This document shows, piece after piece, positions 2,040-36,379 of a DNA stretch of 44,018 nucleotides. A program made the position numbers and the translations under genes. The stretch covers positions 1 through 44,018 of the IMG/VR virus record IMGVR_UViG_3300049717_000050; one strand, given 5' to 3'. The stretch comes from a virus. Numbering within the stretch: the first letter of the stretch is position 1; each line of letters opens with the position of its first letter. A model generated the notes under the pieces. It was given only the letters and a program-made list of their open reading frames with translations, was not told the origin of the DNA and did not search any database.

Positions 2040-2254
2040 AGATGAACGTATGGGTATCACTCGTGCGCTGCTACGGTGGCGATGACGGGGAAGGCATGCG
2101 CCTGTGCGTGCGGGCCAATGGCTCACGGGCAAAGATCGTCGAGGTCACGATCTCGGGTGCGGAGAACATCGCCAACCTGATGACCATGCGTGAGTGTGAT
2201 GGATCGGCCATTGTGCCGGGAGATGGCGGGGAGGAAGTTGTCACGTGCAGCTAG
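2036..2254 (+). CDS. Hypothetical small protein
   Basis: 72 residues starting MKMNVWVSLVRCYGGDDGEG. It looks like a small beta-rich protein and has no recognised domain. It is tightly coupled: the start overlaps the previous stop by four bases, and the end overlaps the helicase start by ten bases, so the three genes are probably co-translated. Confidence 0.6.
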   Translation: MKMNVWVSLVRCYGGDDGEGMRLCVRANGSRAKIVEVTISGAENIANLMTMRECDGSAIVPGDGGEEVVTCS

Positions 2255-4836
2255 GATTATTCGACGCCGCACCAGTGCGACGCGAGACGCAAATAAGTAA
2301 CATTCCGTTACCGAACCCGTCCGGGCTCAAGGCGCGGACGTACCAGGAAGAGGCGTTCGCAGGCGTCGAGAAGCAGCTTGCGGACAACCGGAGCACCCTG
2401 CTCGTGCTTCCCACCGGCAGCGGCAAGACGTTCATCTTCTCGCGCATCGCCCACGGATGGCCTGAGCGTGCCTACGCTCGCGAGCTGAGCGGACGCGTAC
2501 TCGTACTTGCCCACAGAGACGAGCTGCTACAGCAGGCCCGCCAGCGCATCGCCAAGGAGACTGGTGAACTGGTAGGTCTCGAGCAGGCGGAAGCGCGGGC
2601 AGGGCTTGAGCGCATCGTCGTGGGCAGCATCCAGACGCTCTGCCAGCCTAACCGGCTTGCGAGCTGGAAGAAGGACACCTTTGGGCTTGTAATCTGCGAC
2701 GAGTGCTTCCCGGCCGGGACGCTCGTAGACGGATTCCCGATTGAGGACTTTCGCGAAGGTGACTGGGTCTGGTCCGTTGACCACTCCAGCGGAGACTTAG
2801 TCCGAAGGAAAGTTGTTCGCAGGTTCGTAAAAAAATCACACTCTCTCACGAAATTGCGGTATGGTGCGACCGAGACAGTATCGACCAACAATCATCCGTA
2901 TTTCGTGAAAGGACGTGGATATGTCGAAGCTCAATCGGTTGTACCAGGGGACTTGCTGTGTGTGTGGGGAGCCGTTCACCGGAACTCTCTGGAATGTCAA
3001 TCGCCCACCGAAGCTATGCAAAAAGCCGGAGTGCAAGAACAAGCTATCCTCGCTCACGATGGCGAAGACGAACACGGTCCACGCGAGCGCCAGAATGAAG
3101 ACGCGCAACCCAATGCACAGGGACGACAACCTGAAACGGATGAAGGCAACCCTAAAGCGAATTGGACACAAGCCATCCGTTCGTGGTGGAAACGGCTGCG
3201 GGGCGACAAAGGCAGAAGAGGCGGTGGCAAACGCCTTTGGGTGGCCAATGCAGGTGGTTGTTCGGACGAACATGCCTCGGGTGTCAGGGTATCCGAGTTG
3301 CTACAAGATCGACGTGGCAAACCCATCTCTCAAGGTGGGAGTGGAGGTGGACGGCTTCTCCCATACTTCACTTGCGAGGAAGGCCCAGGATGCGAAAAAG
3401 GACGCCTTCTTACGTGGGTTAGGGTGGATAGTGCTGAGAGTGTCGAACCGGCAGGCGCTGGAGGAACTGTCGTCTACAATCTCGAAGTTGAGGGCTCTCA
3501 TACCTACTTCGCCAACGGCACCTTAGTCCACAACTGCCATCACGGTCCATCGCCGAGCTACAAGCGCGTCTTCGAGCACTTCGGATCCGCGAAGCTGCTC
3601 GGGGTCACGGCCACTCCCGACCGGGCGGACGAAAAGGCCATGGGCCAGGTGTTCGAGTCGGTGGCATTCGTCTACGAAATCGAGGACGCCATCAACGACG
3701 CATGGCTGGTGCCCATCCGCGTGCGCCAGGTGTTCATCGACGCCATCAAGCTGGCATCGTGCAGGACCACGGCCGGCGACCTGAACCAGGGCGACCTGGA
3801 TGCTGCCATGGCCGTCGAGGAGGCGCTTCACGGCGTCGTCAATGCGACCATCGAGCAGGCCGGCGACAGGAAGACCATCGTCTACACGACCAGCGTGGAC
3901 AACGCCACAAGGCTGGCTGAGATCTTCAACCGCTACCAGCCGAACACCGCCCGTGACGTGAACGGAAAGACTCCCATCGATACGCGCCGGCAGATTCTTG
4001 CAGGGTTCGAGCGCGGCGACTTCCAGCGCCTGGTCAACTGCGGGATCGCAACCGAGGGCTTCGACTGCCCGCCCGTGAGCTGCATCGCCCAGGCGCGCCC
4101 AACGAAGAGCCGTAGCCTGCACGCGCAGATCGTCGGGCGTGGCCTGCGCCCCGTCTACGCCAGCGGATTCGACCTCGAGACCGTGGAAGGGCGGCGGCAG
4201 GCCATCGCAGCCGGCAAGAGCGATTGCCTCGTGCTCGAGTTCACAGGCAACAGCGGCAAGCACCGACTCTCTAGCGCGGTGGACATCCTCGGAGGGCGAT
4301 ACGACGAGGACGAGGTAGAGGCCGCCAAGAAGCTCGTCCAGGCCAAGCCTGGCATGCGAGCAGACGAAGCGCTGGCCGTTGCCCACGCCGAGGCCGAGAA
4401 GCGCAGAGCAGACGAATCGGCGAAGCGGGCTCGCCTCAAGGCGACCACGAAGTACAGCACGCGCGACTTCTCGCCGTTCGATGTACTAGGCATCAAGCGC
4501 ACCAAGTCTGACGACTGGGGAGACAGGTTTGGCGGTGCTATCGCAACAGACAAGCAGGTCGGCTACATGCGGAGCATGGGCATCGACGTTCCAAAGGACT
4601 GCACCAAGACGCAGGCGATGCGCCTAATAGGGGCCTGCCAGAATCGGAAAGCAGAAGGGCTTGCAAACTACAGTCAGGTCGTGAAGCTCGGACGCGCTGG
4701 CATCGACGGGTCCAAGCTGCGCTGGCAGCAGGCCGCCGATCTGTGCTGGGAAGTGCAGCAGGCAGGAGGTCGCCCGAGCGCCGAAGTGGTGGACAGGATT
4801 TTGAATCGAGAAAGGAGTGCCGGTGAAGATGGCTGA
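2245..4836 (+). CDS. SF2 DEAD/DEAH-type helicase interrupted by an intein
   Basis: The reading frame has 863 codons. Removing the predicted intein (residues 154-430) leaves a 586-residue helicase. Motifs in order are a Q-like TYQEEA (about 32-37), Walker A PTGSGKT (56-62), LAHRDELL (about 88), the split DE|CHH box (152-153 then 431-433), VTATPDR (454-460), KTIVYTTS, GIATEGFDCP and QIVGRGLRP. This resembles RadD/type III restriction-like phage helicases that unwind DNA in replication or recombination. The C-terminal 150 residues are outside the helicase core and unassigned. The GTG start has GAGGAAG about nine bases upstream. One of the dispersed inverted repeats lies inside codons 18-23. Confidence 0.92.
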   Translation: MQLGLFDAAPVRRETQISNIPLPNPSGLKARTYQEEAFAGVEKQLADNRSTLLVLPTGSGKTFIFSRIAHGWPERAYARELSGRVLVLAHRDELLQQARQRIAKETGELVGLEQAEARAGLERIVVGSIQTLCQPNRLASWKKDTFGLVICDECFPAGTLVDGFPIEDFREGDWVWSVDHSSGDLVRRKVVRRFVKKSHSLTKLRYGATETVSTNNHPYFVKGRGYVEAQSVVPGDLLCVWGAVHRNSLECQSPTEAMQKAGVQEQAILAHDGEDEHGPRERQNEDAQPNAQGRQPETDEGNPKANWTQAIRSWWKRLRGDKGRRGGGKRLWVANAGGCSDEHASGVRVSELLQDRRGKPISQGGSGGGRLLPYFTCEEGPGCEKGRLLTWVRVDSAESVEPAGAGGTVVYNLEVEGSHTYFANGTLVHNCHHGPSPSYKRVFEHFGSAKLLGVTATPDRADEKAMGQVFESVAFVYEIEDAINDAWLVPIRVRQVFIDAIKLASCRTTAGDLNQGDLDAAMAVEEALHGVVNATIEQAGDRKTIVYTTSVDNATRLAEIFNRYQPNTARDVNGKTPIDTRRQILAGFERGDFQRLVNCGIATEGFDCPPVSCIAQARPTKSRSLHAQIVGRGLRPVYASGFDLETVEGRRQAIAAGKSDCLVLEFTGNSGKHRLSSAVDILGGRYDEDEVEAAKKLVQAKPGMRADEALAVAHAEAEKRRADESAKRARLKATTKYSTRDFSPFDVLGIKRTKSDDWGDRFGGAIATDKQVGYMRSMGIDVPKDCTKTQAMRLIGACQNRKAEGLANYSQVVKLGRAGIDGSKLRWQQAADLCWEVQQAGGRPSAEVVDRILNRERSAGEDG
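2297..2311. promoter_or_regulatory. Dispersed inverted repeat, site 1
   Basis: GTAACATTCCGTTAC, with 5-bp arms GTAAC/GTTAC around ATTCC. The same 15 bases occur at 7444, 15492 and, reversed, 25015. Here it lies inside the helicase gene, 53 bases after the start. The left flank AAATAA is AT-rich like the other sites. A repressor operator or stoperator-like roadblock is inferred. Confidence 0.6.
2704..3534 (+). mobile_element. Intein (277 residues) in the helicase DECHH box
   Basis: Splicing signals in the helicase frame are complete. Block A is CFPAGTLVDG starting with Cys1 (residue 154), block B contains TNNHPYFV, and VVPGD follows. Block F is VYNLEVEGSHTYF, and block G is NGTLVHN followed by Cys+1 (residue 431). 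The penultimate His and terminal Asn are present, so class 1 protein splicing that restores DE-CHH is expected. The roughly 170 residues between blocks B and F are hydrophilic and low-complexity in this frame. They show no LAGLIDADG or HNH motif, because that DNA encodes an endonuclease in another frame. Insertion in a catalytic motif is typical of inteins. Confidence 0.9.
2921..3526 (+). CDS. Vsr/EDxHD-like homing endonuclease nested out of frame in the intein
   Basis: 201 residues, in a different frame from the surrounding intein (codons start one base later). The N-terminus has a zinc-finger-like set, CCVC (12-15) with C33 and C38. A PD-(D/E)xK/Vsr-like core follows: KAEEAVANAFG (97-107), YKIDVANP (128-135), VEVDGFSH (141-148), D157, then GLGWIVLRV (167-174). 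The E-x-D-G-x-x-H...D arrangement is that of EDxHD homing endonucleases, known as freestanding partners of split inteins. The ATG at 2921 has AAAGGA (2908-2913) seven bases upstream. The TAG stop lies within the codons of intein block G. It probably cuts intein-less helicase alleles. Confidence 0.82.
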   Translation: MSKLNRLYQGTCCVCGEPFTGTLWNVNRPPKLCKKPECKNKLSSLTMAKTNTVHASARMKTRNPMHRDDNLKRMKATLKRIGHKPSVRGGNGCGATKAEEAVANAFGWPMQVVVRTNMPRVSGYPSCYKIDVANPSLKVGVEVDGFSHTSLARKAQDAKKDAFLRGLGWIVLRVSNRQALEELSSTISKLRALIPTSPTAP

Positions 4837-5300: not shown

Positions 5301-5487
5301 AACCACTGTCAAATTGCGAGGAATTGGGGTAAGTCCATTGTGTGCTCTACGGCTTGCAATCTGGAAGGTTGAGAGACGAAAGCCGGTCGGTGAGTGCACG
5401 TGTCTGAAGCGAACGGAGCGCGGAGTGAAGACGAGCTGCGACGAGATAGCGAGGAAGTCTTGGCCGGTGAAGACGAGCGTTACGTGA
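5294..5487 (+). CDS. Doubtful small ORF
   Basis: 64 residues from the ATG at 5294, basic and with four Cys. The start overlaps the end of the 5178-5300 stretch, and the stop (5485-5487) overlaps a GTG that could start the HNH gene as GTGA. That spacing is gene-like, but the sequence matches nothing I know and would overlap the long form of the HNH gene by 94 bases. Confidence 0.25.
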
Positions 5488-5774
5488 GGTGGGTCGGTTC
5501 CGGGCGATGCTGCGCTCCAGGTTGCAGGAACATGAGCGGGCCACCTCATCATCCCCGCCACAACGTAGGCATGGCGATGAGGGCGCACGACCACCGGGTG
5601 GCCCCCCTGTGCGTTGACTGCCACACCAGCATTCACAGTCTGACGTGGGGTCGGTTCAAGGGGTGGGTGAGAGACCAAGTGAGGAAGTTTCTGGACGAGC
5701 AAGGTGCAGAGCTACGAAAACAGTACCTAGAAAGCAAAGGAGTGAACGATGAAAATTCAGAATTCCCAAGGTAA
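5394..5774 (+). CDS. HNH-type protein (DUF968/recombination-nuclease-like)
   Basis: 126 residues from GTG 5394. GTG 5400 and GTG 5484 (GTGA overlap, 96 residues) are alternative starts. The core RWVGSGRCCAPGC, then GPPHHPRH, then RAHDHRVAPLCVDCHTSIH, has paired Cys and His typical of HNH folds and resembles phage DUF968 proteins. These are found with recombination genes and probably nick or cut DNA. The acidic N-terminal 30 residues may not be part of the protein. The gene overlaps the next one by 26 bases. Confidence 0.65.
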   Translation: MHVSEANGARSEDELRRDSEEVLAGEDERYVRWVGSGRCCAPGCRNMSGPPHHPRHNVGMAMRAHDHRVAPLCVDCHTSIHSLTWGRFKGWVRDQVRKFLDEQGAELRKQYLESKGVNDENSEFPR

Positions 5775-12108: not shown

Positions 12109-14316
12109 CTATTCCTTCGTTCCACTGTAACGCATTCTCTCTCCGATTGAGGCAGAGAAGCGCTCTTTCTGCTTGCGCGCCTGCTCGACCAGGCTCTTTG
12201 CCGCCGATGCCCCTGACGCTGCGGTTGCGATGCCCATCATGCCTGGAATCGACGAGCGCATAGCTGCGGCGTCCGGCGTGTTCGCCGCGATGGTCGACGC
12301 CAGAGGCTGACCGATGCGGCTGCCGATCTTCTCTCCTGCCATCGCCTCCAGCGATAGCGCGTGCGCCGGGGAGTGGGTGGTGGCTCCAAGGGCCGCCAGG
12401 GTGAGAGGGTGGGTCAGGCTTCCGAGGCGGAACTTCGAAGCCTCCTGTGCCACCTTGGACTCCAGCACGGCGTCGGTCTGCGGCTTCAGCTCGCGTCTGA
12501 TGTCCACGAGCTTGGCTGCTGTCTCTGCCTTCACCTTGGCCACGGCGTCATCGTGCGCTTGCTGGGTCTCGTAGGAAAGCTGGTCAACGTCGCGAAGACG
12601 CTGCTCCATCTCGAGGATTTCAGGCTCGTAGCCGTACTTGATGAGTTCTTCACGGTGGGGAATCTTGGCAGCAGCGGATGTCGTGGTGTCGCCGAGCTGG
12701 ATCAGCCCCTGGCGCCCTCTGGCCTCGGTTTGCGGAGACAGGTCAACCTTGGCCTCGTCAGGTCCCCCGAAGACGATCTGCTTCGTGCGCTCCTGCTCAG
12801 TGGTGGCTGCGCGGAACCGTTCGTTCGACTGGGCGTACAGGCCGGGTCCGTCGTCTTCCCTCGTGGGGTCCACGTTCTTGGCGTGGGTCTTCAGCTCACC
12901 AAGGAGTGTTTCGTACGGCCACCGCTGCTCGTCTGTCCCTGACTGTGCCTTAGATTTCGCGTACTTGATGGCGTTCCTGAAGTCGCGCATGGTGGCGCCA
13001 GATTCAGGAAGGAAGTCCTTCAGATCGGAAGCTGCTGAAGCGAGCGCTCGGCCGTTCGGGAGCAAGACTTGCTCGCCAGGCTTCGAGGCGCCCTCGCTGG
13101 AGTAGCCCTTCACGAGATCCTGGGCCTTCCTGAAGAACCCCGACGTGTCCAGCAGCTTGCCGGCGGTGCGCTGGTCGAGATCCTGCATCTCGCTTTCCCT
13201 GGTCGTTTTGGTTGAGGCGCGCTGGTCTTCGAGCTTCTTGGTGATGGCCTGGGCCGCCTCGTCTGCGGCGTCTCCCCTGCTCATTTTGTAGCCACCAAGC
13301 GCTGCGTCGGTGTCGCGCTTCATGTCGGCGATGGTCCGGCGCTCCTGCGTGCGCACGGGCGCCTCTAGCGCTGGCATCTGGTCCTCGTAGCTGAGGTTGG
13401 CCAGCTCCTTGGCCTGCTCGATGCCGGCCTGGCCTTCCATGAGACTGGCCATCGGCTCCTGCCGGTGGGCACCTGACGCCTTGTCGCGAGCGAAGGTCTG
13501 CGCTCGGCGCCCGACGATGGTGTTCGGGTTCGATGCCCACGACGAGATGCCAGGAAGAAGGCTGGAGATGCCACCCATGGCGGCCGGCGCGGCGATCTCC
13601 TGCCCAACGTTCACCGGAGGAACCTGCGCGGTGACGGGCTGCCCATGCGCGGCCTGTCCTAGCCCTTGCTCAACCGCAGGCAGGCGACGAATGGCGGCCT
13701 CTCCGGCCCCGATGGCGGCGCCAGTTCCGGCGCCCGCTGCAACCGTCCTGGCGAGCCCTGGAGCGTTTCCAACTAGGTTCTTGTAGATACCTGAAACCGG
13801 CGCCATCAAGGCGTTCGACGCCATTTGCACGCCCTTGCCAAGAAGTCCTGCCTGTCCGACTAGAGGAGCTGAAGCGCCGAGTGTGTTCTGGGCTATTTCT
13901 CCTAGTTTTGAACTGGCAAGAGGTGAATTTGCCATCGCCTGGCGAATCTCACCTGGCCTTGGTAGCAGGTTGGGAACTGGAATCACCTTCGAAATCCCTA
14001 GCCTGTCAGAAAGCTCGCCACCTGCCTCAAGCGCTGGGGCCACGAACGGAAGTCCAGAGTACACGGATCCGGCTAGCCCAGCGATAGTATCCCCGATTGG
14101 AGCATCGCGCGGGAGAGGCAGCGGCTGCGCCGTAGTGGCGAGCTGCCGGTCAATGTGAGCCTGCTGCTCGGGACGAAGCGGCATGGCCACCGAAGGCTTC
14201 ACCCTAGACGCCAGGACCTTCTGGGCAAGCGGATAGAGCTGCCCGCTCGGGTCGCCGTTCTCGACGATGAACTGGAGCTTCTGGTCGCTTAAGCCTGCGA
14301 GGTCGGACGCATCCAC
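12109..14316 (-). CDS. Large internal virion (DNA ejection) protein candidate
   Basis: 735 residues from GTG 14316, which overlaps the preceding TAG by one base. The N-terminal third has Gly/Ala-rich membrane-active segments (LARTVAAGAGTGAAIGAGEA). The middle and end are long charged helices (HDDAVAKVKAETAAKLVDIRR). Size, helical content and place after two other large proteins and the gp10-like gene match P22-type ejection proteins. This is inferred from position and composition. Confidence 0.5.
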   Translation of the reverse strand: MDASDLAGLSDQKLQFIVENGDPSGQLYPLAQKVLASRVKPSVAMPLRPEQQAHIDRQLATTAQPLPLPRDAPIGDTIAGLAGSVYSGLPFVAPALEAGGELSDRLGISKVIPVPNLLPRPGEIRQAMANSPLASSKLGEIAQNTLGASAPLVGQAGLLGKGVQMASNALMAPVSGIYKNLVGNAPGLARTVAAGAGTGAAIGAGEAAIRRLPAVEQGLGQAAHGQPVTAQVPPVNVGQEIAAPAAMGGISSLLPGISSWASNPNTIVGRRAQTFARDKASGAHRQEPMASLMEGQAGIEQAKELANLSYEDQMPALEAPVRTQERRTIADMKRDTDAALGGYKMSRGDAADEAAQAITKKLEDQRASTKTTRESEMQDLDQRTAGKLLDTSGFFRKAQDLVKGYSSEGASKPGEQVLLPNGRALASAASDLKDFLPESGATMRDFRNAIKYAKSKAQSGTDEQRWPYETLLGELKTHAKNVDPTREDDGPGLYAQSNERFRAATTEQERTKQIVFGGPDEAKVDLSPQTEARGRQGLIQLGDTTTSAAAKIPHREELIKYGYEPEILEMEQRLRDVDQLSYETQQAHDDAVAKVKAETAAKLVDIRRELKPQTDAVLESKVAQEASKFRLGSLTHPLTLAALGATTHSPAHALSLEAMAGEKIGSRIGQPLASTIAANTPDAAAMRSSIPGMMGIATAASGASAAKSLVEQARKQKERFSASIGERMRYSGTKE

Positions 14317-16385
14317 TACTTCATCCCCTTCAGCGCGTCGAGCAGTTGCTGGTCAGAGCGCTTCCCGCTAGGGGCACCGCCAGATGCCGGCGCCGCTGTA
14401 CCCCCGTTGAAGTCAGGGATGAGAGGCGAGTCGCCGAACCACTGCCTCGGCTGCTCGCCGATGAAGCGCAGCTTGGAATTGATCTTGTCCTGCATGCGCT
14501 CGTGGAACGGTACCCCGGCGCTCTTGTAGGCCTCGGACTGGGCCGAGATGTTCTTTAGGGCCATGCCCTGGATGGCCTTCTGCGACTCGACGATGGCCTG
14601 CTCAAGCCCTGCGCGCTGCCCCTCTGGCAAGTGGGCAATATTGGCGATGGCTTCCTTGTCGGCCTGGGATCCGCTGAAGTTGGTCCACAGGTCTGAAATC
14701 CCTACCTTTTGACCAAGCTTGTCGAGCATCGTGCCGAGGTTTCCGGTGACGCTCTTGAACTCGTCCGTCTCGTTCTTGGCAGGAACGCCGCCTCGGATGT
14801 AGCCGAAGAAGTTCATCATGGATTCCATCTGCTGCGCACCGCCGAGGTCGCCCTTGGCTCGGATGTTCTGGAGGGCCAGGTTCAGGCGGTCGAAACCGAT
14901 GCCTTCGAGCTTGGTCCAGTTCATCTCTCGGTCGAGCATGTTCACGCCGTTGTTGACCGAGTTCTCGATGCGCGACTGCTCTGTCGGCTTCAGACGGGAG
15001 AACGCGCTGCCCTGGCCGGACGACTGCACGACGGTTCCGCTCTTGCCTCCACCACCACGGCCGTACTTCGACGTCGCGCGCCTAGTGGCGTTGTTCTCGG
15101 CGGCGATCTTCTCCTGCGTGGCCAGCCGATCTGACTGCATGCCCTCGTTGCTGGCAATCTGCGCACCCTGGCGCTCCATGGTGCCGGCCTGGGCGTAGAC
15201 CTGCTTGATCTCTGCCGTCGACATGTCTCCAAGAAGAGACTGCTTCTTGATGGTAAGATACTGGAATACTTGAGGATTCAGCTTCGTCGCAGGGTCCGCT
15301 AGCGCGACGTCGATTTCTCGAAGCGCCTGGGCAGATTCGTCGCGACGGGCCGCGCGGGCCTCGTTGGGGTCTACCGTGATTACTTGGCCATCGGGAAGGT
15401 GAGCCTCCCACCGGCCGCCCTGTGGCTGCCCGGCCTGCATCGACATTCCCTTGACGTCGGCGCCTGGCACGAATTGACTCGTCGAATTAGGTAACATTCC
15501 GTTACTTAATTCAGGGTTGTCGACCGGTGGCAGCGGGCCAGAGAACGGGTTTCCTTTTCCGCCCTTGAGGTTCACGTCTTCTGGGGCGAATCGCTGACCT
15601 TCCTTGGCGCCCTCGGGGAACGCCTGGATGGGAAGCTCTTGGCGGGTCTCTCCACCTGGCCCACTGAGCGCCGTGGCGGTGCCCTCGTCGTTGCGGTCGA
15701 GAAATATGGAATTGTCTGGCTCTTGGGCCTGCGGTTCTGGCGCCGGCTCGGACGGCGGTGCCGCGCGCGACATGAGCGCTTCTAGCTGCGGGTCCACCTG
15801 CGTCTGTCCGTCTGGCGTTGCACTCGCCACGGGCGGAGGCAGACGCTTCTGCGCCAGTGCGAACGGCAGGTTCATCACCGCAGGGCCACCCATGGAAGGC
15901 TGTGCTCCAGGAGGTGGAGCATCGGTAGGCGCTGGCGGTGAAGGTTCTGGAGGAGCTTGCACCGGGGATACTGGAGGCGGCGCTGCGGCCGCCGGCACCT
16001 GTGGCGCCTGTCCACCAACGAACTTCCAGTCGACATAGGCAGGGTTGCCGTCTGGCCCCTGAACAAGCATGGTGCCAGGATGCTGGCCTCGCGCGATGGC
16101 CGCCTTGGCCTCCTTGAGCGATAGCTGCGTGGCCTGGGCGCGCTTGTACGACGCATCGGCATCGACCTTCTTCTCGGCGATGTCCTGCTTGCGCCGGCCG
16201 TACGCTTCGCGCTCGGCATCGCGTGCGAGGAGACGCTTCTGGTTTTCCTCTGCCTGCGCAGCCTGGTCCTGCTGCTGCTGAAGCTCCATCCTCCGCTGGG
16301 AGAAGTGGTCGATCATGCTCCCGAGGGAGTTGATCTGCGGAACGAAGCTGGGAGGAGCTACGGGAGTGTCGAATGGGCTGGGCAT
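14316..16385 (-). CDS. Large internal virion protein candidate, coiled coil and Pro-rich
   Basis: 689 residues from ATG 16385. A strong coiled coil lies at about 20-80 (QRRMELQQQQDQAAQAEENQ), then a Pro/Gln-rich linker and a helical C-terminal half. It sits between two other large proteins, as expected for an ejection-protein set. An open frame extends a little upstream into the neighbouring gene, but the ATG five bases after its stop is the natural start. Inverted repeat site 3 is inside. Confidence 0.5.
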   Translation of the reverse strand: MPSPFDTPVAPPSFVPQINSLGSMIDHFSQRRMELQQQQDQAAQAEENQKRLLARDAEREAYGRRKQDIAEKKVDADASYKRAQATQLSLKEAKAAIARGQHPGTMLVQGPDGNPAYVDWKFVGGQAPQVPAAAAPPPVSPVQAPPEPSPPAPTDAPPPGAQPSMGGPAVMNLPFALAQKRLPPPVASATPDGQTQVDPQLEALMSRAAPPSEPAPEPQAQEPDNSIFLDRNDEGTATALSGPGGETRQELPIQAFPEGAKEGQRFAPEDVNLKGGKGNPFSGPLPPVDNPELSNGMLPNSTSQFVPGADVKGMSMQAGQPQGGRWEAHLPDGQVITVDPNEARAARRDESAQALREIDVALADPATKLNPQVFQYLTIKKQSLLGDMSTAEIKQVYAQAGTMERQGAQIASNEGMQSDRLATQEKIAAENNATRRATSKYGRGGGGKSGTVVQSSGQGSAFSRLKPTEQSRIENSVNNGVNMLDREMNWTKLEGIGFDRLNLALQNIRAKGDLGGAQQMESMMNFFGYIRGGVPAKNETDEFKSVTGNLGTMLDKLGQKVGISDLWTNFSGSQADKEAIANIAHLPEGQRAGLEQAIVESQKAIQGMALKNISAQSEAYKSAGVPFHERMQDKINSKLRFIGEQPRQWFGDSPLIPDFNGGTAAPASGGAPSGKRSDQQLLDALKGMK
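15492..15506. promoter_or_regulatory. Dispersed inverted repeat, site 3
   Basis: GTAACATTCCGTTAC flanked by GAATTAG and TTAATTC, inside the coding sequence of the 14316-16385 gene. Here the repeat encodes part of LPNST and cannot be a simple intergenic promoter element. Confidence 0.6.
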
Positions 16386-16389
16386 GGTT

Positions 16390-18135
16390 TCACGATTGCG
16401 ATGGATACACGCCGTACGTGCCGGCGGCGCCAGAAGCGATGTCAGACGCCGTGGGGGCAACGTATGGATTCTTGGGAGTGGTCGATCCTGTCCCGTTCCC
16501 GCCTCCTAACTTCGTCGACAGGTAGTAGTCGAAGGACGAGTTTGCGACGACCCCCATGGATGCCGCCAGATCCTGCGCCTTCTGGTACTGCTGCTGCGCC
16601 GTGAGCCCGGCCTGCTGCCACTGGGCCTGAAGCACGCCTAGCTGGCTGGCGTAGCTCGATGCCGTGGCGGCGCTGAGCCCTGCCTCAGTGAGAGCGGATT
16701 CGTCTTGCGCCAGCGTTGTAGCCGAGTTGAGCTCGCCAGTCAGCCGGTTATTCATTAGCGTTTCCGCACTGTTGGCAGCCGACTGCCCGGCCGTCGTCTG
16801 GGCGAGGTTGGCAGTGTCGACGCCCAGAGCGGCGTTCTGTCCTGCGGTTACTAGCCCGAGGTTTTGGGAGTCCGCCGAACCGGCAAGGGTTCCGCGCAGG
16901 TTGGTCTGCGCCAGTCCACTGGCGTCTGCTGCTCCTGCCTCAGACATGCCCTCCTTCGTGAACCCCTGGCGAGCTAGGAGCTTCTGGTTGGAGAAGTCGA
17001 GGCCGATCCCAGCCACCGCGCGGGCCGCAGCCGAGCTGTCTCCCACGCCTGCCGAGGCGGCCCGTCGGTCCAGCGCGGTCTGGGTCTTCTGCTGCTGAGT
17101 GTTGTAGTAGTCGTCGAGGTAGTTCGGGTTGGCGTACATGCCGCTGTACTGGTTCCAGAGCTGCTGCGATTCCGTGGGCTGGTTTGGCGTCTCGTTGAAG
17201 ACCTGCTGGGCGTTTGTGGTCTGCCCGTAGATCCCCTTGGTCTGGTCGTAGGTCGTCTGCGCGTTGGTTGGCTGCTGGTAAGAGCTGGCCGTGTCAGTGT
17301 AGTAGTTCTCACCCGTCCCTGGCGTGGTCAGGGTGCCCGGTGTCGTTGCCGCCGTCGTGGTGGCCGGCGTGGTCGTGGCGCCGCCTGCCGTGGGGGCGAT
17401 CTGGGTGCCAGCCGTTCCAGCCGGGTGCTTCTGGTCGTACCAGGACTTGTACTCGGCTACGGACGCGATTGCTTGCGACAGGTCTCCGAACACTTGTCCG
17501 CCGCCGCCGCCAGTGCCAGCGTAGAACTTTGTCGGCGTACCGTTCTGGTCGTACTGAACAGGTATTACGCCCTTGGCGCTTGGTCCGAGACCATAGTCTT
17601 GGTCGTACCAGTAATCCTTGGTCTCGTTTCCGCTCCCTCCTCCGTACGCAGACCCCCCTGTCGAGTAGGTGATCTTGCCCGTGTTTGGGTCGATGTATCC
17701 GCCGTTCGACGGGACCTCGTACACCCCACGTTTAGCCAAGTCTCCGCTCGATGCGTATCCAGTAAAATTGTCACCGTTGACACGCTTCTCAGCATCTGTC
17801 GCCGGCCTGAGTTGCCCCGTGACCGGATCCTTTATGATCCAGGTCTTGGAGTCCCCACCCGACGACGAGCCAAAGTAGACGATGCCTCCCGTGGTTCCGC
17901 CGACATCCGCTGGCGTCCAAACGTTTCCCTGCCCGAAATTGTACCCGGTCGTGTGGTCCTGGGTGAACTGCTGGCCGTAGGCATTCTGCGATGCCACGCC
18001 AGCGTCGTTGCCGGCCGCCTGGGCGCCCAAAGACTTCTGGACGCTGGTGTACTCCGTCTCGCTGGTGTACGGGAGTCCGGTATTCGGGTTGGTCTGCTGC
18101 GACCAGTAGTCCGTGGTTCCGCTGGTGTCAGGCAT
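16390..18135 (-). CDS. Large Gly/Ser/Thr-rich structural protein
   Basis: 581 residues. The first half is rich in Gly, Tyr, Asn and Thr (SYGGGSGNETKDYWYDQDYG-like segments), with a Thr-Ala-Pro linker (TTTPATTTAATTPG). The second half is helical and Ala/Gln-rich (LGVLQAQWQQAGLTAQQQYQ). The ATG follows the preceding stop by one base. First of the three large candidates for internal proteins. No family name assigned. Confidence 0.5.
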   Translation of the reverse strand: MPDTSGTTDYWSQQTNPNTGLPYTSETEYTSVQKSLGAQAAGNDAGVASQNAYGQQFTQDHTTGYNFGQGNVWTPADVGGTTGGIVYFGSSSGGDSKTWIIKDPVTGQLRPATDAEKRVNGDNFTGYASSGDLAKRGVYEVPSNGGYIDPNTGKITYSTGGSAYGGGSGNETKDYWYDQDYGLGPSAKGVIPVQYDQNGTPTKFYAGTGGGGGQVFGDLSQAIASVAEYKSWYDQKHPAGTAGTQIAPTAGGATTTPATTTAATTPGTLTTPGTGENYYTDTASSYQQPTNAQTTYDQTKGIYGQTTNAQQVFNETPNQPTESQQLWNQYSGMYANPNYLDDYYNTQQQKTQTALDRRAASAGVGDSSAAARAVAGIGLDFSNQKLLARQGFTKEGMSEAGAADASGLAQTNLRGTLAGSADSQNLGLVTAGQNAALGVDTANLAQTTAGQSAANSAETLMNNRLTGELNSATTLAQDESALTEAGLSAATASSYASQLGVLQAQWQQAGLTAQQQYQKAQDLAASMGVVANSSFDYYLSTKLGGGNGTGSTTPKNPYVAPTASDIASGAAGTYGVYPSQS

Positions 18136-31561: not shown

Positions 31562-31864
31562 ATGAAGAACCTAGTACTGGCATTGGTCGTTTCGTTCGGT
31601 CTCGCGGCCTGCGACGGCGCCGGCCTGTCCGGCGCTGGCAGCGTGGACGCGGGAGCCGAGGCGCAGGTTGGCGTGGATGCTGGAGCCGAAGCTCCAAACT
31701 TCGGGCCTATTCCCGATTGCGCTTACCAGTTCCGTCCGCAGCACAAGGCCGACGGGTCCGGCTGGGAGTGCGTGCCCATGCCGGTCTGCCCCTGGGGCTG
31801 GGGAGACTATCCCCAAGCCGATTGGTCGGGCTGGTACTGTAAGTGCGTACAAGATTGCCCCTAG
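31562..31864 (+). CDS. Isolated Cys-rich lipoprotein on opposite strand
   Basis: 100 residues with a lipoprotein signal, MKNLVLALVVSFGLAAC, lipid Cys17 followed by Asp, which would retain it in the inner membrane by the enteric +2 rule. An Asp-Ala-Gly-rich spacer and a Cys/Trp-rich domain (CPWGWGDYPQADWSGWYCKC) follow. GGAGG precedes the ATG. The only gene nearby on this strand, so it needs its own promoter. Its TAG shares CTAG with the stop of the convergent fibre gene. A moron-type or superinfection-exclusion role is inferred. Confidence 0.7.
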   Translation: MKNLVLALVVSFGLAACDGAGLSGAGSVDAGAEAQVGVDAGAEAPNFGPIPDCAYQFRPQHKADGSGWECVPMPVCPWGWGDYPQADWSGWYCKCVQDCP

Positions 31865-34206
31865 GGCAGCCCCCCGTAATCACGCACGATGAGGGATACG
31901 CTGTACGGATGAGAGTCGCAGCCGTGATAACCAGACGCGTCTGTCTCAATCGCTTGGACGTATATGTCGTGTGCCCCACTGGTTGCCAATGTGGTTGCTT
32001 GCACGGGTAGGGTGACAGAAACAGGTTGACTCGGCACATACGACGGGGTGACCGGAGAACCACAGGAATTGAACCCCATTGAGACTTGCGTGGTGTCGAG
32101 AAGGATTCTAAGGCAGCAAAACGTTGCCGGCGTCGAGCCTGTGAAAGACGGTGCCTGCAATGTCGCGACTGCCGAGATGTCAAAAACGCTAGACGATGTA
32201 TCCGAGAAATGGAGCGATGCGATATTCGTCCAGCTTGTACCGACGGACACCCCTGACGACGATATACTGCTGTACACGCCTTTTACGTTGAACGAGTACC
32301 CTTTCGCCACCGCGCCCAGCGTGCTCCCGCTCGGGCAGTTGTAGCCGTCGCTCCTGCAATCGCTCGCCGCGTGCCCTGTCGTGTTGCCGCTGCTGTCGAT
32401 GTTGGTGCCGTAAACGTAGGAGCCAGTCGATTGAATTACTCCAGTTGCTGTCACTCCGCCGCCGCTCGCCGCGTTCAAAGTCACCTTCGTGTCGTTGGTC
32501 TGAAAGACGTCGGACTTGAATGTGCCGTTCATCGCAACTGTAGAACCGGAGACAGCTAGCGGCGAATCCGTGAGCGATGTTGAACCGTTGGCCACGGGGA
32601 TTTTTCCGCTTGTAAGTCCCGCCGTGCTAACGTTGCCGCCGCTTCCAGCCGGCGTGGAGCAAGTAACACCGCTCGTTGTCGTTGCCGATGCGTATTGACC
32701 TGCAGGACACGTGCCCGGCACCGCTCCTCCAAGTGCCGCTGCCGTTGGACAATTCCCGGTATTCTGCTGGCACACGGCGACCCCATTGGCGTAGATGGTA
32801 CCCGTGACTGACTCGAATCCAGCGACATACACATTGCTCCCCGAGTAGGTCATCGGGCCGTTGACCACGGTGCCGGATGCGTTGAACGCGGCGAAGTTGC
32901 CGACGCTGCAAGTTCCTCCGCACCCGATGGCTCCGACGTCGGCATAGTTGAGCACCGGGTTAATGGAGATCGCGTAACCGTTCACCGAATTGGTTACTGT
33001 TGCGGTCGCCGTGGTGGTCGACGTGCGGACCAACGTGCAGTTTCGACTTAGTGGGCAAGATGTACCTGTGCCCGTAGATGTGTCGGTGCTCGTGTCTGTT
33101 CCTGTTCGGTAGGCGAAGGCGTAATCACCGCCAGAAGCTCCAACGGCAGTCGTAGCGTACAGGTCGTCAGACGCGTGCGTCTGTGCTGGGTGAACATGGT
33201 TGGACTGCGCTGGCACTTGCGACGTTCCAGGCGATGCCGTGCCTGCCGCGAGCGGATTAATCGCGCTGAATCCCGACCACGGCGCGCTGACGTACGTAGG
33301 CGTTGCCCCACCATAGCCTATCGTGAGGTTGTTGGTGCTGGACGAAGACGCATACAGTTTCACAACAAGACTGTCAGTCAATGGGGCGCTGCTAAAGTAG
33401 CTACTGGCAGAAGTCGCTACGATGTCTTGCCTGTAAACGCTGCCCACCGCAACGGTCACGGTTGGGCTGGTCGCAATAACAGTACTCCCAGCGGTCACTG
33501 TAAAGTAAACGCTAGCCGGAGTGCTCGCCATTCCCGCCCACAGGGAAAACCTGTAGCTACCAGCCGGCCACTGTATGATATTTGGCGCGGATGCGAAAAA
33601 TTGATCCACCACCGCGGAAGACGAAGTCACAGAAACTGAATCCGATGCTGTCCCGCTGTTACTGGAAGGGGCCATAGGCCACGTGCCGAAGAAAGGGTTA
33701 AACGGATAGTAGATCGTCCTCGGCGACTCCATGCCGATGCCGATGTCCGTAGTCGCTTTCGTCACCGTGCATGTCACTGGCTGCGCGGAAGTCTGGTAGA
33801 GCGTCCCCGTGCTGGTCGCCGTCGCCGTGCTTGTCGTCGTGTCGGTCTTGCCAGCGCAGGCCATGCCGGTGGGGGTGACGAAGGGCATGGGCGGAACCTG
33901 TGCCGTCGGAAGCCTGCCGTTGGTATCCAAGATCGGGCACCCGCCCGCTGTGTTGGTGCAGACGTCCGACGACATGATCTGCACTATCGAGCACGCCGGC
34001 CACGACACGGGCGATCCCTGGGCGGGGAGCTGGACCGAGATGCCGGGGGCTTGGGAGCACCAGAGCTTACTGGTCGTGGCGTCGAGGTACGCTGGGCCGT
34101 AGTCGCCGCTCGTGCCGTCGTTGCCGGTGGTGACGGTCTCGGCCGAAGCCGCGTAGCCGACGACCAGCGAAGCGAGAGTGAGGAGTGCGATGCGAATCTT
34201 GTTCAT
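31861..34206 (-). CDS. Large Ser/Thr/Gly-rich fibre-like protein with Sec signal peptide
   Basis: 781 residues from ATG 34206. It begins with a clear signal peptide (MNKIRIALLTLASLVVGYAASA, cleavage after Ala22), which is unusual for a virion protein. The rest is low-charge, Ser/Thr/Gly-rich with fibre-like repeats, an SNHVHPAQTHASDD segment known from phage fibres, and Cys pairs (GCGGTCSVGN, CRSDGYNCPSG). It could be a fibre with a signal-like N-terminus or a truly exported adhesin-like protein. Confidence 0.6.
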   Translation of the reverse strand: MNKIRIALLTLASLVVGYAASAETVTTGNDGTSGDYGPAYLDATTSKLWCSQAPGISVQLPAQGSPVSWPACSIVQIMSSDVCTNTAGGCPILDTNGRLPTAQVPPMPFVTPTGMACAGKTDTTTSTATATSTGTLYQTSAQPVTCTVTKATTDIGIGMESPRTIYYPFNPFFGTWPMAPSSNSGTASDSVSVTSSSAVVDQFFASAPNIIQWPAGSYRFSLWAGMASTPASVYFTVTAGSTVIATSPTVTVAVGSVYRQDIVATSASSYFSSAPLTDSLVVKLYASSSSTNNLTIGYGGATPTYVSAPWSGFSAINPLAAGTASPGTSQVPAQSNHVHPAQTHASDDLYATTAVGASGGDYAFAYRTGTDTSTDTSTGTGTSCPLSRNCTLVRTSTTTATATVTNSVNGYAISINPVLNYADVGAIGCGGTCSVGNFAAFNASGTVVNGPMTYSGSNVYVAGFESVTGTIYANGVAVCQQNTGNCPTAAALGGAVPGTCPAGQYASATTTSGVTCSTPAGSGGNVSTAGLTSGKIPVANGSTSLTDSPLAVSGSTVAMNGTFKSDVFQTNDTKVTLNAASGGGVTATGVIQSTGSYVYGTNIDSSGNTTGHAASDCRSDGYNCPSGSTLGAVAKGYSFNVKGVYSSISSSGVSVGTSWTNIASLHFSDTSSSVFDISAVATLQAPSFTGSTPATFCCLRILLDTTQVSMGFNSCGSPVTPSYVPSQPVSVTLPVQATTLATSGAHDIYVQAIETDASGYHGCDSHPYSVSLIVRDYGGLP

Positions 34207-34211
34207 GGTCG

Positions 34212-36002
34212 TTACCCCTGCTGCATTTCCTTGAGTAGCCACATCCCAGACGAGCCGAGGTCTGGTCGAAAGCGGAACGTGACGGTGGCACCCGCGCGCA
34301 CGTTGGCCACCTGGTACGTCGCGAACGTTCCCTTGTACGTGCGGATCGGCATGTCCGTTCCCATCACCGTCTGGTCGCTGCGAATCGCGCACGCGACGGC
34401 GAAGTAAACCTCAAGCACGCCGTTCGCTGGCCACCCGCTGGCGTTGATGGCGTCGAGGTCTGCGCTCGCCGCGGTCACGTTGGCGAATGAGCCGTATGGC
34501 ACCGCCGGCATCACGCCACTGGTAATGGTGACGTCCGTCTTGGTGTCAGGGCTGATGGCCTTCGTGGGGTGCTGGTCGGCGACGTCGCGTCCAGACAGGT
34601 GCCCGTGCACGCCGTCGCTCGCGCCACTGACCGGCATCGCGAACGGAAACGTGATTTTGTTACCGCGCAACGGTCCGTTGTAGCTGATGCCCATCGTGAC
34701 GGGCGAGATGCTGTTCGTGTGGATGTAGAAGTTGGCCTTCAGCCGGCGCGTTGAATCGAACGTATACGGGCTAGACAGCGGCGAGCCGACGAAGTGAAGA
34801 GGCTCCGGGCGCGAGCCAGACGCCGTGACGGGAGGAGAATCGACTATCAGAATGACGGCGTTTCCGTTGTCCACGTCGATGAGCTTCAGGCGAAGCATTG
34901 CGACGGTTCCCGGATCCATGCCAGAGGCAGCGGCCGATTCGATGTCAACCGTGTACGGGCCTACCGCAAGCTCGGACACGCCAGGCGTTCCAGCCAGCGT
35001 AATGAACGAGAGAGGGAACTGGGTGTCGTCGAAGCCTCCGAGGCCGGCGCCACTGGTCACGCCCATGTCGAGGTAATCCGTCAGAGCGCCTTCGCTAGTG
35101 AGCTGTGGGCCGGTGAGCAGCTCCCACTTCTCGTCGGAAGCTGGGATGGCGCCGGCGGTCCTCGACCAACTGACGAACGTGGTTCGAAGCACGAACGCGC
35201 CGGTGTTCTCGAAGGTGAAGTAGCCGCCTCCGAATAGGGTGCCATTCTCGACGGCGAACTGCATCCCGTGCGTCCACGCTGATGAGTAGGACAGCTCCGG
35301 GTCAAGGTGCATGCGCGCGTAGGTGGAGACGCCAATGTAGGCGTCAAAGTACGGTTCCCAGTGAAAGCCAACGTCGTCGATGATCCAGACGAGCTGATAG
35401 GGCTCCTCGAATCCCGTCACAGACGTGTCGCCCTGGTAGTAAGCGATTACGCGCTTGCCAACGAGAGGAGAAGTCTCACCACGAGGAGGGGTCACGATTA
35501 CCCCGTCGAACCAAGAGTCAGGAATCGCCCCAGTCACATCCCTTTGCATGACCCCTGGGGAAATCTCGGCAAAGTCAGCCTCGAACATAGGGGTGTTCGA
35601 GTGAGGAGTGTGCGGCCCAAGGAACGCGCAGTACACGTCCCCGCGAAAGAGTGAGGCGCCAACCTTGGCAGTGTAGAGAGTTCCGGTGGCCGTCGTAGTT
35701 GGTGGCGGGATAGGAGGTGTGGTGACAGGGTTTGCCGAGAATACGAGCTGGCGCGCACCTGGTGGTCCGATCTTGGTGATGGTGACGCCGGCTCCTTGGA
35801 TGAGCTTCAGCTCGGCGACGCCTGGGACGTCGTCCTTGTCGACCCCGAGTTTGCCGAGGTACTTCACAGCCCAGTTGATCCAGCGGTAGACCTGCTGGAA
35901 GAAGGTGTAGCCCTCCTTGTGAAGCCAAGGGACGAGCGACTTCTGGTCAGGCACCCTATCCGAGATGGGCTGCTGGATCTTCCTGCGCTGCCAGATGGCC
36001 AC
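34212..36002 (-). CDS. Large tail/fibre protein
   Basis: 596 residues from GTG 36002, which overlaps the preceding TAG by one base. The N-terminal GYTFFQQVYRWINWAVKYLG and VAELKLIQGAGVTITKIGPP form a virion-attachment-like region, followed by beta-rich modules (HMQFAVENGTLFGGGYFTFE-type, GMSISYNG-type). The position upstream of another fibre-like gene suggests a tail or baseplate-like component. No named family. Confidence 0.55.
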   Translation of the reverse strand: MAIWQRRKIQQPISDRVPDQKSLVPWLHKEGYTFFQQVYRWINWAVKYLGKLGVDKDDVPGVAELKLIQGAGVTITKIGPPGARQLVFSANPVTTPPIPPPTTTATGTLYTAKVGASLFRGDVYCAFLGPHTPHSNTPMFEADFAEISPGVMQRDVTGAIPDSWFDGVIVTPPRGETSPLVGKRVIAYYQGDTSVTGFEEPYQLVWIIDDVGFHWEPYFDAYIGVSTYARMHLDPELSYSSAWTHGMQFAVENGTLFGGGYFTFENTGAFVLRTTFVSWSRTAGAIPASDEKWELLTGPQLTSEGALTDYLDMGVTSGAGLGGFDDTQFPLSFITLAGTPGVSELAVGPYTVDIESAAASGMDPGTVAMLRLKLIDVDNGNAVILIVDSPPVTASGSRPEPLHFVGSPLSSPYTFDSTRRLKANFYIHTNSISPVTMGISYNGPLRGNKITFPFAMPVSGASDGVHGHLSGRDVADQHPTKAISPDTKTDVTITSGVMPAVPYGSFANVTAASADLDAINASGWPANGVLEVYFAVACAIRSDQTVMGTDMPIRTYKGTFATYQVANVRAGATVTFRFRPDLGSSGMWLLKEMQQG

Positions 36003-36379
36003 TACTTGTCCTCTTCGGGCGCCGTCACGTCGAGCGTTGGGTAGACCTTCTTCTCCATGATGTGCAGAACGTACCCGGCGACAGGTGGCAGCTCGCCTCC
36101 GCGCATGCCTGCAATCTTCTGGGCTGTCTCGATTCGCTTGTAGTGCTCCATCAGGTAGATAGGCACGTTGCGAGTCGAGCACATGGCATCGCAGTGCAGG
36201 TTCCACTCGGCGTCCTTCATCCACGGGGGGCGAATGAGGTTGCCCATCTCGTCGCGCGGTATCGTGTGGGTCTTGCCTGCGACCTCGACAACGTTGGCGG
36301 ACGCCGCGACCATGCGGCCGAAGCGCTGAGCGACCTGCTGCTCTGGAACGGTGGCTAGGTCAGTCGTCGCCATGGTCAC
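36002..36379 (-). CDS. Hypothetical late-block protein
   Basis: 125 residues from GTG 36379; ATG 36373 is also possible. It includes HTIPRDEMGNLIRPPWMKDA and MEHYKRIETAQKIAGMRGGE. The mixed helical protein has no recognised domain. It is tightly packed between neighbours on both sides. A small terminase role can be considered because none is seen elsewhere, but nothing in the sequence shows it. Confidence 0.5.
   Translation of the reverse strand: MTMATTDLATVPEQQVAQRFGRMVAASANVVEVAGKTHTIPRDEMGNLIRPPWMKDAEWNLHCDAMCSTRNVPIYLMEHYKRIETAQKIAGMRGGELPPVAGYVLHIMEKKVYPTLDVTAPEEDK

Follow-up and report, generated by a model that had tools for sequence, protein, structure and literature searches.

Can the homing endonuclease of an intein be encoded not as a part of the splicing protein, but in a second reading frame of the same DNA? 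This question is raised by a helicase gene in a viral record of 44,018 bases, referred to below in its entirety as the window. An earlier note, made from the sequence alone, had described in the helicase frame all splicing blocks of an intein (Cys1, TNNH, HN|C) without the usual in-frame endonuclease, and in another frame a 201-residue Vsr/EDxHD-like endonuclease with a Cys-rich finger. In our interpretation, the locus is very likely (probability approximately 0.88) a mobile intein with a homing endonuclease gene nested in the +1 frame and translated independently. The two frames, their conservation, the selection acting on them, the existence of precise empty sites in relatives and the enrichment of internal ribosome-binding sites are shown by computation; splicing, internal translation, cleavage and homing are inferred. 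The coordinates of all elements of the locus are collected in Table 1.

Table 1. Elements of the intein-containing helicase gene and of the nested endonuclease gene (positions in the window)
Feature	Position	Strand	Evidence or remarks
Host SF2 (ResIII/RadD-like) phage helicase	2245..4836	+	single ORF, GTG start, reads through the intein
Helicase N-extein	2245-2703	+	
Intein, 277 aa, 831 nt	2704..3534	+	between GAG (E) and TGC (C), Walker B (motif II) DE|CH
N-terminal splicing region, residues 1-90: Cys1, block A, block B T61xxH64	2704..2973	+	invariant residues, pLDDT >90
AAAGGA, Shine-Dalgarno-like site, inside the codons of block B (F-V-K-G-R-G-Y)	2908..2913	+	7 nt before ATG 2921
Nested endonuclease gene, +1 frame, ATG to TAG, 201 aa	2921..3526	+	DUF559, fold prediction
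Cys-rich (zinc) finger, C12xxC15 ... C33xxxxC38	2954..3034	+	sequence
Intein-frame linker, residues 91-230, read from endonuclease-coding DNA	2974..3393	+	predicted disordered, pLDDT ~43
Nuclease core, residues 128-190; D131, E142, D144, H148, D157 invariant	3302..3490	+	profile, alignment, fold
C-terminal splicing region, residues 231-277: blocks F and G, V275-H276-N277 before Cys+1	3394..3534	+	invariant residues, fold, codon position 3 fastest again
Nested stop TAG, straddling the intein codons Leu274 (TTA) and Val275 (GTC)	3524..3526	+	
Helicase C-extein	3535-4836	+	

The helicase ORF matched the ResIII (9.9e-24) and Helicase_C (1.2e-10) profiles as well as the DNA helicase family phrog_16 in PHROGs (4.3e-74). 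Its insert contains Cys1, the TNNH sequence in block B, block F and a terminal His-Asn pair followed by Cys+1, and it matched PT-HINT (1.8e-8) and TIGR01443, the profile of intein C-termini (4.6e-6), above the respective cut-offs, and Intein_splicing (4.4e-8) just under the Pfam cut-off. Since the Hint profile, the fold and the splicing residues all agree, we classify it as an intein of the class-1 type, for which splicing itself is inferred. No endonuclease was recognised in the helicase frame of this intein, and no HNH match was obtained in the insert, where DUF559 and intein matches were found instead. The split-intein layout is also absent from the window: both intein halves are located on one ORF.

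The nested protein, on the other hand, matched DUF559 at 3.3e-8, with 33.8 bits against a curated (gathering) cut-off of 20.6. Its AlphaFold model exhibits a mean pLDDT of 88.9, and the PDB entries closest to it according to Foldseek are the endonuclease-like protein 3hrl and the I-Bth0305I catalytic domain 3r3p, each with a probability of 0.99, but with E of only about 0.02 (3r3p, the second best, has E of 0.019 and a TM-score of 0.60 by target length). Sequence similarity to I-Bth0305I could not be detected by a profile search of the PDB, and a PDB sequence search with one protein returned a weak match only. A candidate series E99-D131-x-H148-D157 was seen in A1/A2, without residue-by-residue alignment to the EDxHD motif of I-Bth0305I. 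Based on the profile match and the predicted fold, the product of 2921-3526 is assigned as a zinc-finger/DUF559 nuclease of the Vsr/EDxHD fold, whose ability to cleave DNA is inferred.

Thus, the two frames were confirmed as described in the earlier note, including the splicing blocks, the missing in-frame endonuclease and the finger-bearing nuclease, with a single host ORF, intein profiles in one frame and DUF559 in the other. The proposed start of the nested gene, i.e. its own AAAGGA site and ATG, also held (GTG 2915, in the same frame, is an alternative, weaker start), as did the position of the nested stop within the codons of block G. However, the claim that the final splicing residues are double-coded held only in part: double coding covers block F and most of block G, but the terminal His276 and Asn277 lie past the nested stop.

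The predicted structure of the intein-frame product indicates how both products can be accommodated. In the input of the structure predictions, three rows taken from named phage records had been dropped or exchanged for other loci. Residues 1-90 and approximately 231-277 are modelled with pLDDT above 90 and their fold matches the solved inteins Mtu RecA and Ssp DnaB, while residues 91-230 reach only about 43. With the ends of the Hint domain folded and the middle disordered, the conflict between the frames is limited to the short ends, namely the beginning of the endonuclease, which lies over the region of block B, and its tail, which is encoded by the DNA of blocks F-G.

The arrangement is not peculiar to the window. 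A tblastn search with the nested protein identified 40 phage genomes with 40-47% identity, and every match is covered by a feature whose annotation reads helicase, coil-containing, P-loop or hypothetical protein. Eight of these records were opened (Pseudomonas phage MR14, Vibrio phages CP-T1, 159E43-1b, 104E43.1, K391, 1.027.O and 1.088.O, and Corynebacterium phage phi673), and all eight exhibit an unbroken helicase ORF, Cys1...HN|C at the DE|CH site, and the endonuclease in phase +1. The nested gene is annotated in none of them, each showing a single long helicase ORF only; evidently, gene callers overlook it. Scans with single proteins were too narrow (yielding one locus and none) and alignments were needed as queries. 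With an alignment of ten sequences, 208 relatives were found in IMG/VR, of which 80 were kept, and 34 in GTDB genomes, among them the isolate Ktedonobacter racemifer. Members of the family come from isolates, bins and viral contigs, and the contigs have been assigned to many bacterial phyla.

The loci were tested with separate profiles of the intein N-part, intein C-part and endonuclease, an approach in which other phases or frequently closed frames could have appeared. Every locus with all three parts has phase +1, and the ends of the intein share one open ORF in all but two of them; the exceptions in this test comprise two split loci and one in-frame case. A further scan, seeded with the intein, yielded 244 relatives (80 kept), and a nested endonuclease in phase +1 was found in 78 of the 79 examined; the remaining one, L202, is a mini-intein of 135 residues at the same DE|CH site, without endonuclease. 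This set lies partly on the same contigs as the endonuclease-seeded one, hence the counts are not additive. C1, T61, H64, N259, Y268, H276 and N277 are invariant in 41 inteins, while D131, E142, D144, H148, D157, W169, R173 and N176 are invariant in 66 endonucleases, in which the finger residues C12, C15 and C38 are nearly so. The frames overlap by a median of 616 nt across 78 loci, and in 73 of these the nested stop is contained in the final 66 nt of the intein, most commonly as a TAG over codons such as Leu-Val or Val-Val. The correlation of endonuclease distances with intein distances is only modest (rank r 0.22, exceeding each of 500 shuffles), which makes their co-descent, with some exchange, likely but not proved.

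Selection on both frames was revealed by two tests. In the stop-avoidance test, the endonuclease was recoded synonymously at 80 loci with less than 90% endonuclease identity. The host frame is open across the endonuclease in 78 of them, always in phase +1, against expectations of 9.4 host-frame stops and 1.0 open locus out of 80 with the codon usage of the exteins, or 7.9 stops and 0.7 open loci with shuffled own codons; it stays open even at 28% G+C, where about 18 stops would be expected. In the third frame, which is open at no locus, stops average 13.9. The host frame is closed only in the split loci L089 and L108; each has ten stops, close to what would be expected without constraint, and they therefore serve as internal negative controls.

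In the codon-position test, substitutions per site were counted at host positions 1, 2 and 3 in 18 disjoint pairs of relatives. The respective values are 0.26, 0.17 and 0.48 in the 5' extein and 0.22, 0.16 and 0.32 in the intein before the overlap, change to 0.36, 0.18 and 0.14 in the overlap, where host position 1 is endonuclease position 3, and return to 0.10, 0.07 and 0.27 over the final 66 nt (blocks F-G) and 0.22, 0.17 and 0.46 in the 3' extein. Constraint passes from the host frame to the endonuclease frame and back at the borders predicted by the model, and both frames are under selection. Hence the claim that both are kept open over about 600 bases was upheld by both tests. The earlier note had named as potential refutations the lack of a profile match, homologues with stops in the nested frame and a sequencing error; none of them applies, as DUF559 is matched by the nested frame and Hint-type profiles by the intein, homologues keep both frames, and dozens of independent loci could not have arisen from a sequencing error. 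Its suggestion that endonuclease dosage is uncoupled from the translation of the helicase remains an inference.

As to the expression of the nested gene, in 33 of 75 loci a nested start is preceded, with suitable spacing, by a match of 5 nt or longer to the Shine-Dalgarno sequence. Starts in the third frame of these inteins give an expectation of 6.5 such loci, with no more than 11 in any of 200 draws. Matches of at least 6 nt occur in 15 loci (1.35 expected), and those of at least 4 nt in 50, so that some relatives are left without a good site. The enrichment supports internal initiation, although translation in vivo is inferred.

An alternative to internal initiation is programmed ribosomal frameshifting, which would yield a fusion of the N-terminal parts of the helicase and intein with the endonuclease and leave the rest of the model unchanged. 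It is favoured by phase +1 at every nested locus, as a conserved frameshift would need, and by the lack of an obvious Shine-Dalgarno site at some loci. However, common descent also accounts for the constant phase, internal Shine-Dalgarno sites are strongly enriched, and in the window the nested frame opens just 12 nt before ATG 2921, so the slip would be confined to a very short stretch and there is little room for a frameshift product. We regard this possibility as unlikely and rank it below internal initiation. It could also be argued that the nested frame is degenerate or unexpressed, the intein now immobile, and the frames open by recent descent only. In support of this, endonuclease activity in the family is only inferred; against it, positions 1 and 2 of the endonuclease evolve far more slowly than position 3, the residues of the catalytic core are invariant across 66 divergent proteins, and filled and empty sites are found among close relatives, which renders such a decayed state very improbable.

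The last possibility is that the two frames are really one, i.e. an ordinary in-frame intein endonuclease split by an error of sequencing or assembly. One relative, L113, indeed has the endonuclease in frame with the intein, but the same phase is shared by 78 of 80 non-redundant loci, where about one would be open by chance, and two compensating errors would be required at each locus, so this reading is all but excluded. Sequencing error and chance overlap are both ruled out by the conservation of phase +1 together with the stop-avoidance and codon-position tests.

The nested-intein model implies mobility, for which precise filled and empty alleles have been found (L009 versus L124/L125, and L004 versus L126). 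The helicase of Vibrio phage 1.027.O (filled) comprises 900 residues, whereas those of 1.251.O and PS17B.1 (empty) comprise 544 residues, with exteins 96% and 92% identical to those of 1.027.O and an uninterrupted GAYGAG|TGYCAC site. Similarly, CP-T1 (L004; filled, 993 residues) and vB_VchM-138 (L126; empty, 640 residues) have exteins 98.6% identical. The filled site of CP-T1 reads DE|CH, while the empty one of vB_VchM-138 reads DE|AH, therefore the splicing Cys+1 probably arrived with the element by co-conversion. The consensus of the flanks over 106 sites is GAYGAR|TGYCAY, and the host genes include several SF2 helicases (ResIII, SNF2-like, Helicase_C_2), a terminase large subunit and DnaX. 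It appears that the element homes on the Walker B motif of P-loop ATPase genes; both cleavage and homing are inferred.

We propose that translation of the helicase frame would yield the N-terminal part of the helicase, a Hint domain with a disordered linker, and the C-terminal part of the helicase, and that the Hint domain would excise itself to restore the DECH Walker B motif. Ribosomes starting inside the intein, at ATG 2921 behind AAAGGA, would make the zinc-finger/Vsr-fold endonuclease as a separate protein. Its substrate in co-infecting phages would be the Walker B site without an intein (GAYGAR|TGYCAY), and the whole element would be copied into the break during repair. The DNA would be shared economically, with the endonuclease core encoded over a linker whose sequence may hardly matter beyond staying open, and with splicing blocks F-G doubling as the coding sequence of the endonuclease tail. 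Such a mechanism would account for the association of an intein with a mobile endonuclease to which it is not fused: two unrelated machines, a protein-splicing domain and a nuclease, are held in different frames of about 600 nt across phages and contigs of many bacterial phyla, which also offers a natural model for overlapping-gene design.

The closest precedent found in the accessible literature is the ShiLan insertion (PMC11855218), which is not an intein. It encodes an out-of-frame HNH nuclease, leaves the host frame open, and is present sporadically, which suggests homing; no splicing domain or ribosome-binding site was detected in it, and the insert is thought to be retained in the host protein. 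The window element is similar in that the endonuclease is concealed in a second frame of an insert that leaves the host frame open, with a sporadic distribution suggestive of homing, but it differs in being a full intein, in having a nuclease of the Vsr/DUF559 type and in its internal Shine-Dalgarno sites. Large inteins of the canonical kind, such as those in phage TerL genes (PMC5050341), contain an in-frame homing endonuclease, mostly of the LAGLIDADG type. They share with our element the Hint domain, the insertion into ATPase active centres including Walker B and the spread, inferred in our case, by means of an endonuclease located between blocks B and F; however, their endonuclease is fused in the same frame, while that of the window is a separate product, in another frame and with another fold.

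In fractured genes, the two halves of a split intein are reported to flank a Vsr-like/EDxHD endonuclease gene that stands on its own (Dassa et al. 2009; cited in PMC3229294). The class of the nuclease fold and the independence of the endonuclease gene within an intein-interrupted phage gene of DNA metabolism are common to both systems, but the intein of the window, like those of 77 other non-redundant loci, is unsplit and has a frame that continues through the endonuclease gene. I-Bth0305I, an EDxHD enzyme, is encoded in a phage intron (Taylor et al. 2011; reviewed in PMC3943268), and the nested endonuclease resembles it in predicted fold, not in sequence. The full-text literature searched, which did not cover the preprint of Gosselin et al. 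2025 (bioRxiv 2025.01.02.630785), yielded no description of an intein containing an endonuclease in a different frame. The preprint is cited in PMC11855218 for overlapping reading frames, as is Gorbalenya 1998, and, judging by its title and this citation, its non-canonical actinobacteriophage inteins may touch on similar arrangements. We therefore regard the out-of-frame endonuclease as a variant on known intein and homing themes, whose priority is unsettled.

Other architectures have been identified among the relatives. In L113 (2828-5506), from a contig of an archaeal (Methanosuratincola) bin, the in-frame endonuclease resides within the intein of a UvrD-like helicase. L089 (3298-5265) and L108 (3217-5508) exhibit the fractured-gene layout: the host is an SNF2-like helicase, the N-terminal ORF ends after block B, the C-terminal part is on a new ORF, and the endonuclease ORF overlaps both. 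Free-standing endonucleases in L040 (3863-4546), L041 (3355-3996) and L095 (3872-4483) overlap the start of an intein-less helicase in which the DE|CH, DE|AH or DE|SH site is intact; we infer that they sit beside their probable target gene. An apparent occurrence of two inteins in one host ORF was also observed (L055, 2161-5868; two Intein_splicing stretches).

It is plausible that the nested state is an intermediate between in-frame inteins and fractured genes, although the endonuclease tree, inferred by a quick method, has too little support to establish the order of the architectures or a single nested origin. According to a bolder reading, for which we see as many reasons to doubt as to believe, the loci represent a large, old and unrecognised clade of inteins at Walker B of P-loop ATPase genes, in which an endonuclease in an overlapping frame is the rule and which stands between in-frame inteins and fractured genes. 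If so, stops in the host frame would turn the nested intein into a split one whose endonuclease is free-standing, as may be exemplified by L089 and L108, providing a concrete route to natural split inteins. The observed family itself connects the in-frame, nested, split and free-standing forms of the same endonuclease and makes the origin of split inteins testable.

Elsewhere in the window, a small ORF resembling HNH endonucleases (5394-5774, +; phrog_96, phrog_131) is located shortly downstream of the helicase. Several large ORFs near the terminase and head-tail genes (12109-18135 and 31861-36224, on the minus strand) have no match in PHROGs, thus the structural module of this phage is poorly represented there. 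The record begins with an ORF of collagen-like G-x-P repeats (1-306, +), which is either cut by the contig end or has an unclear start.
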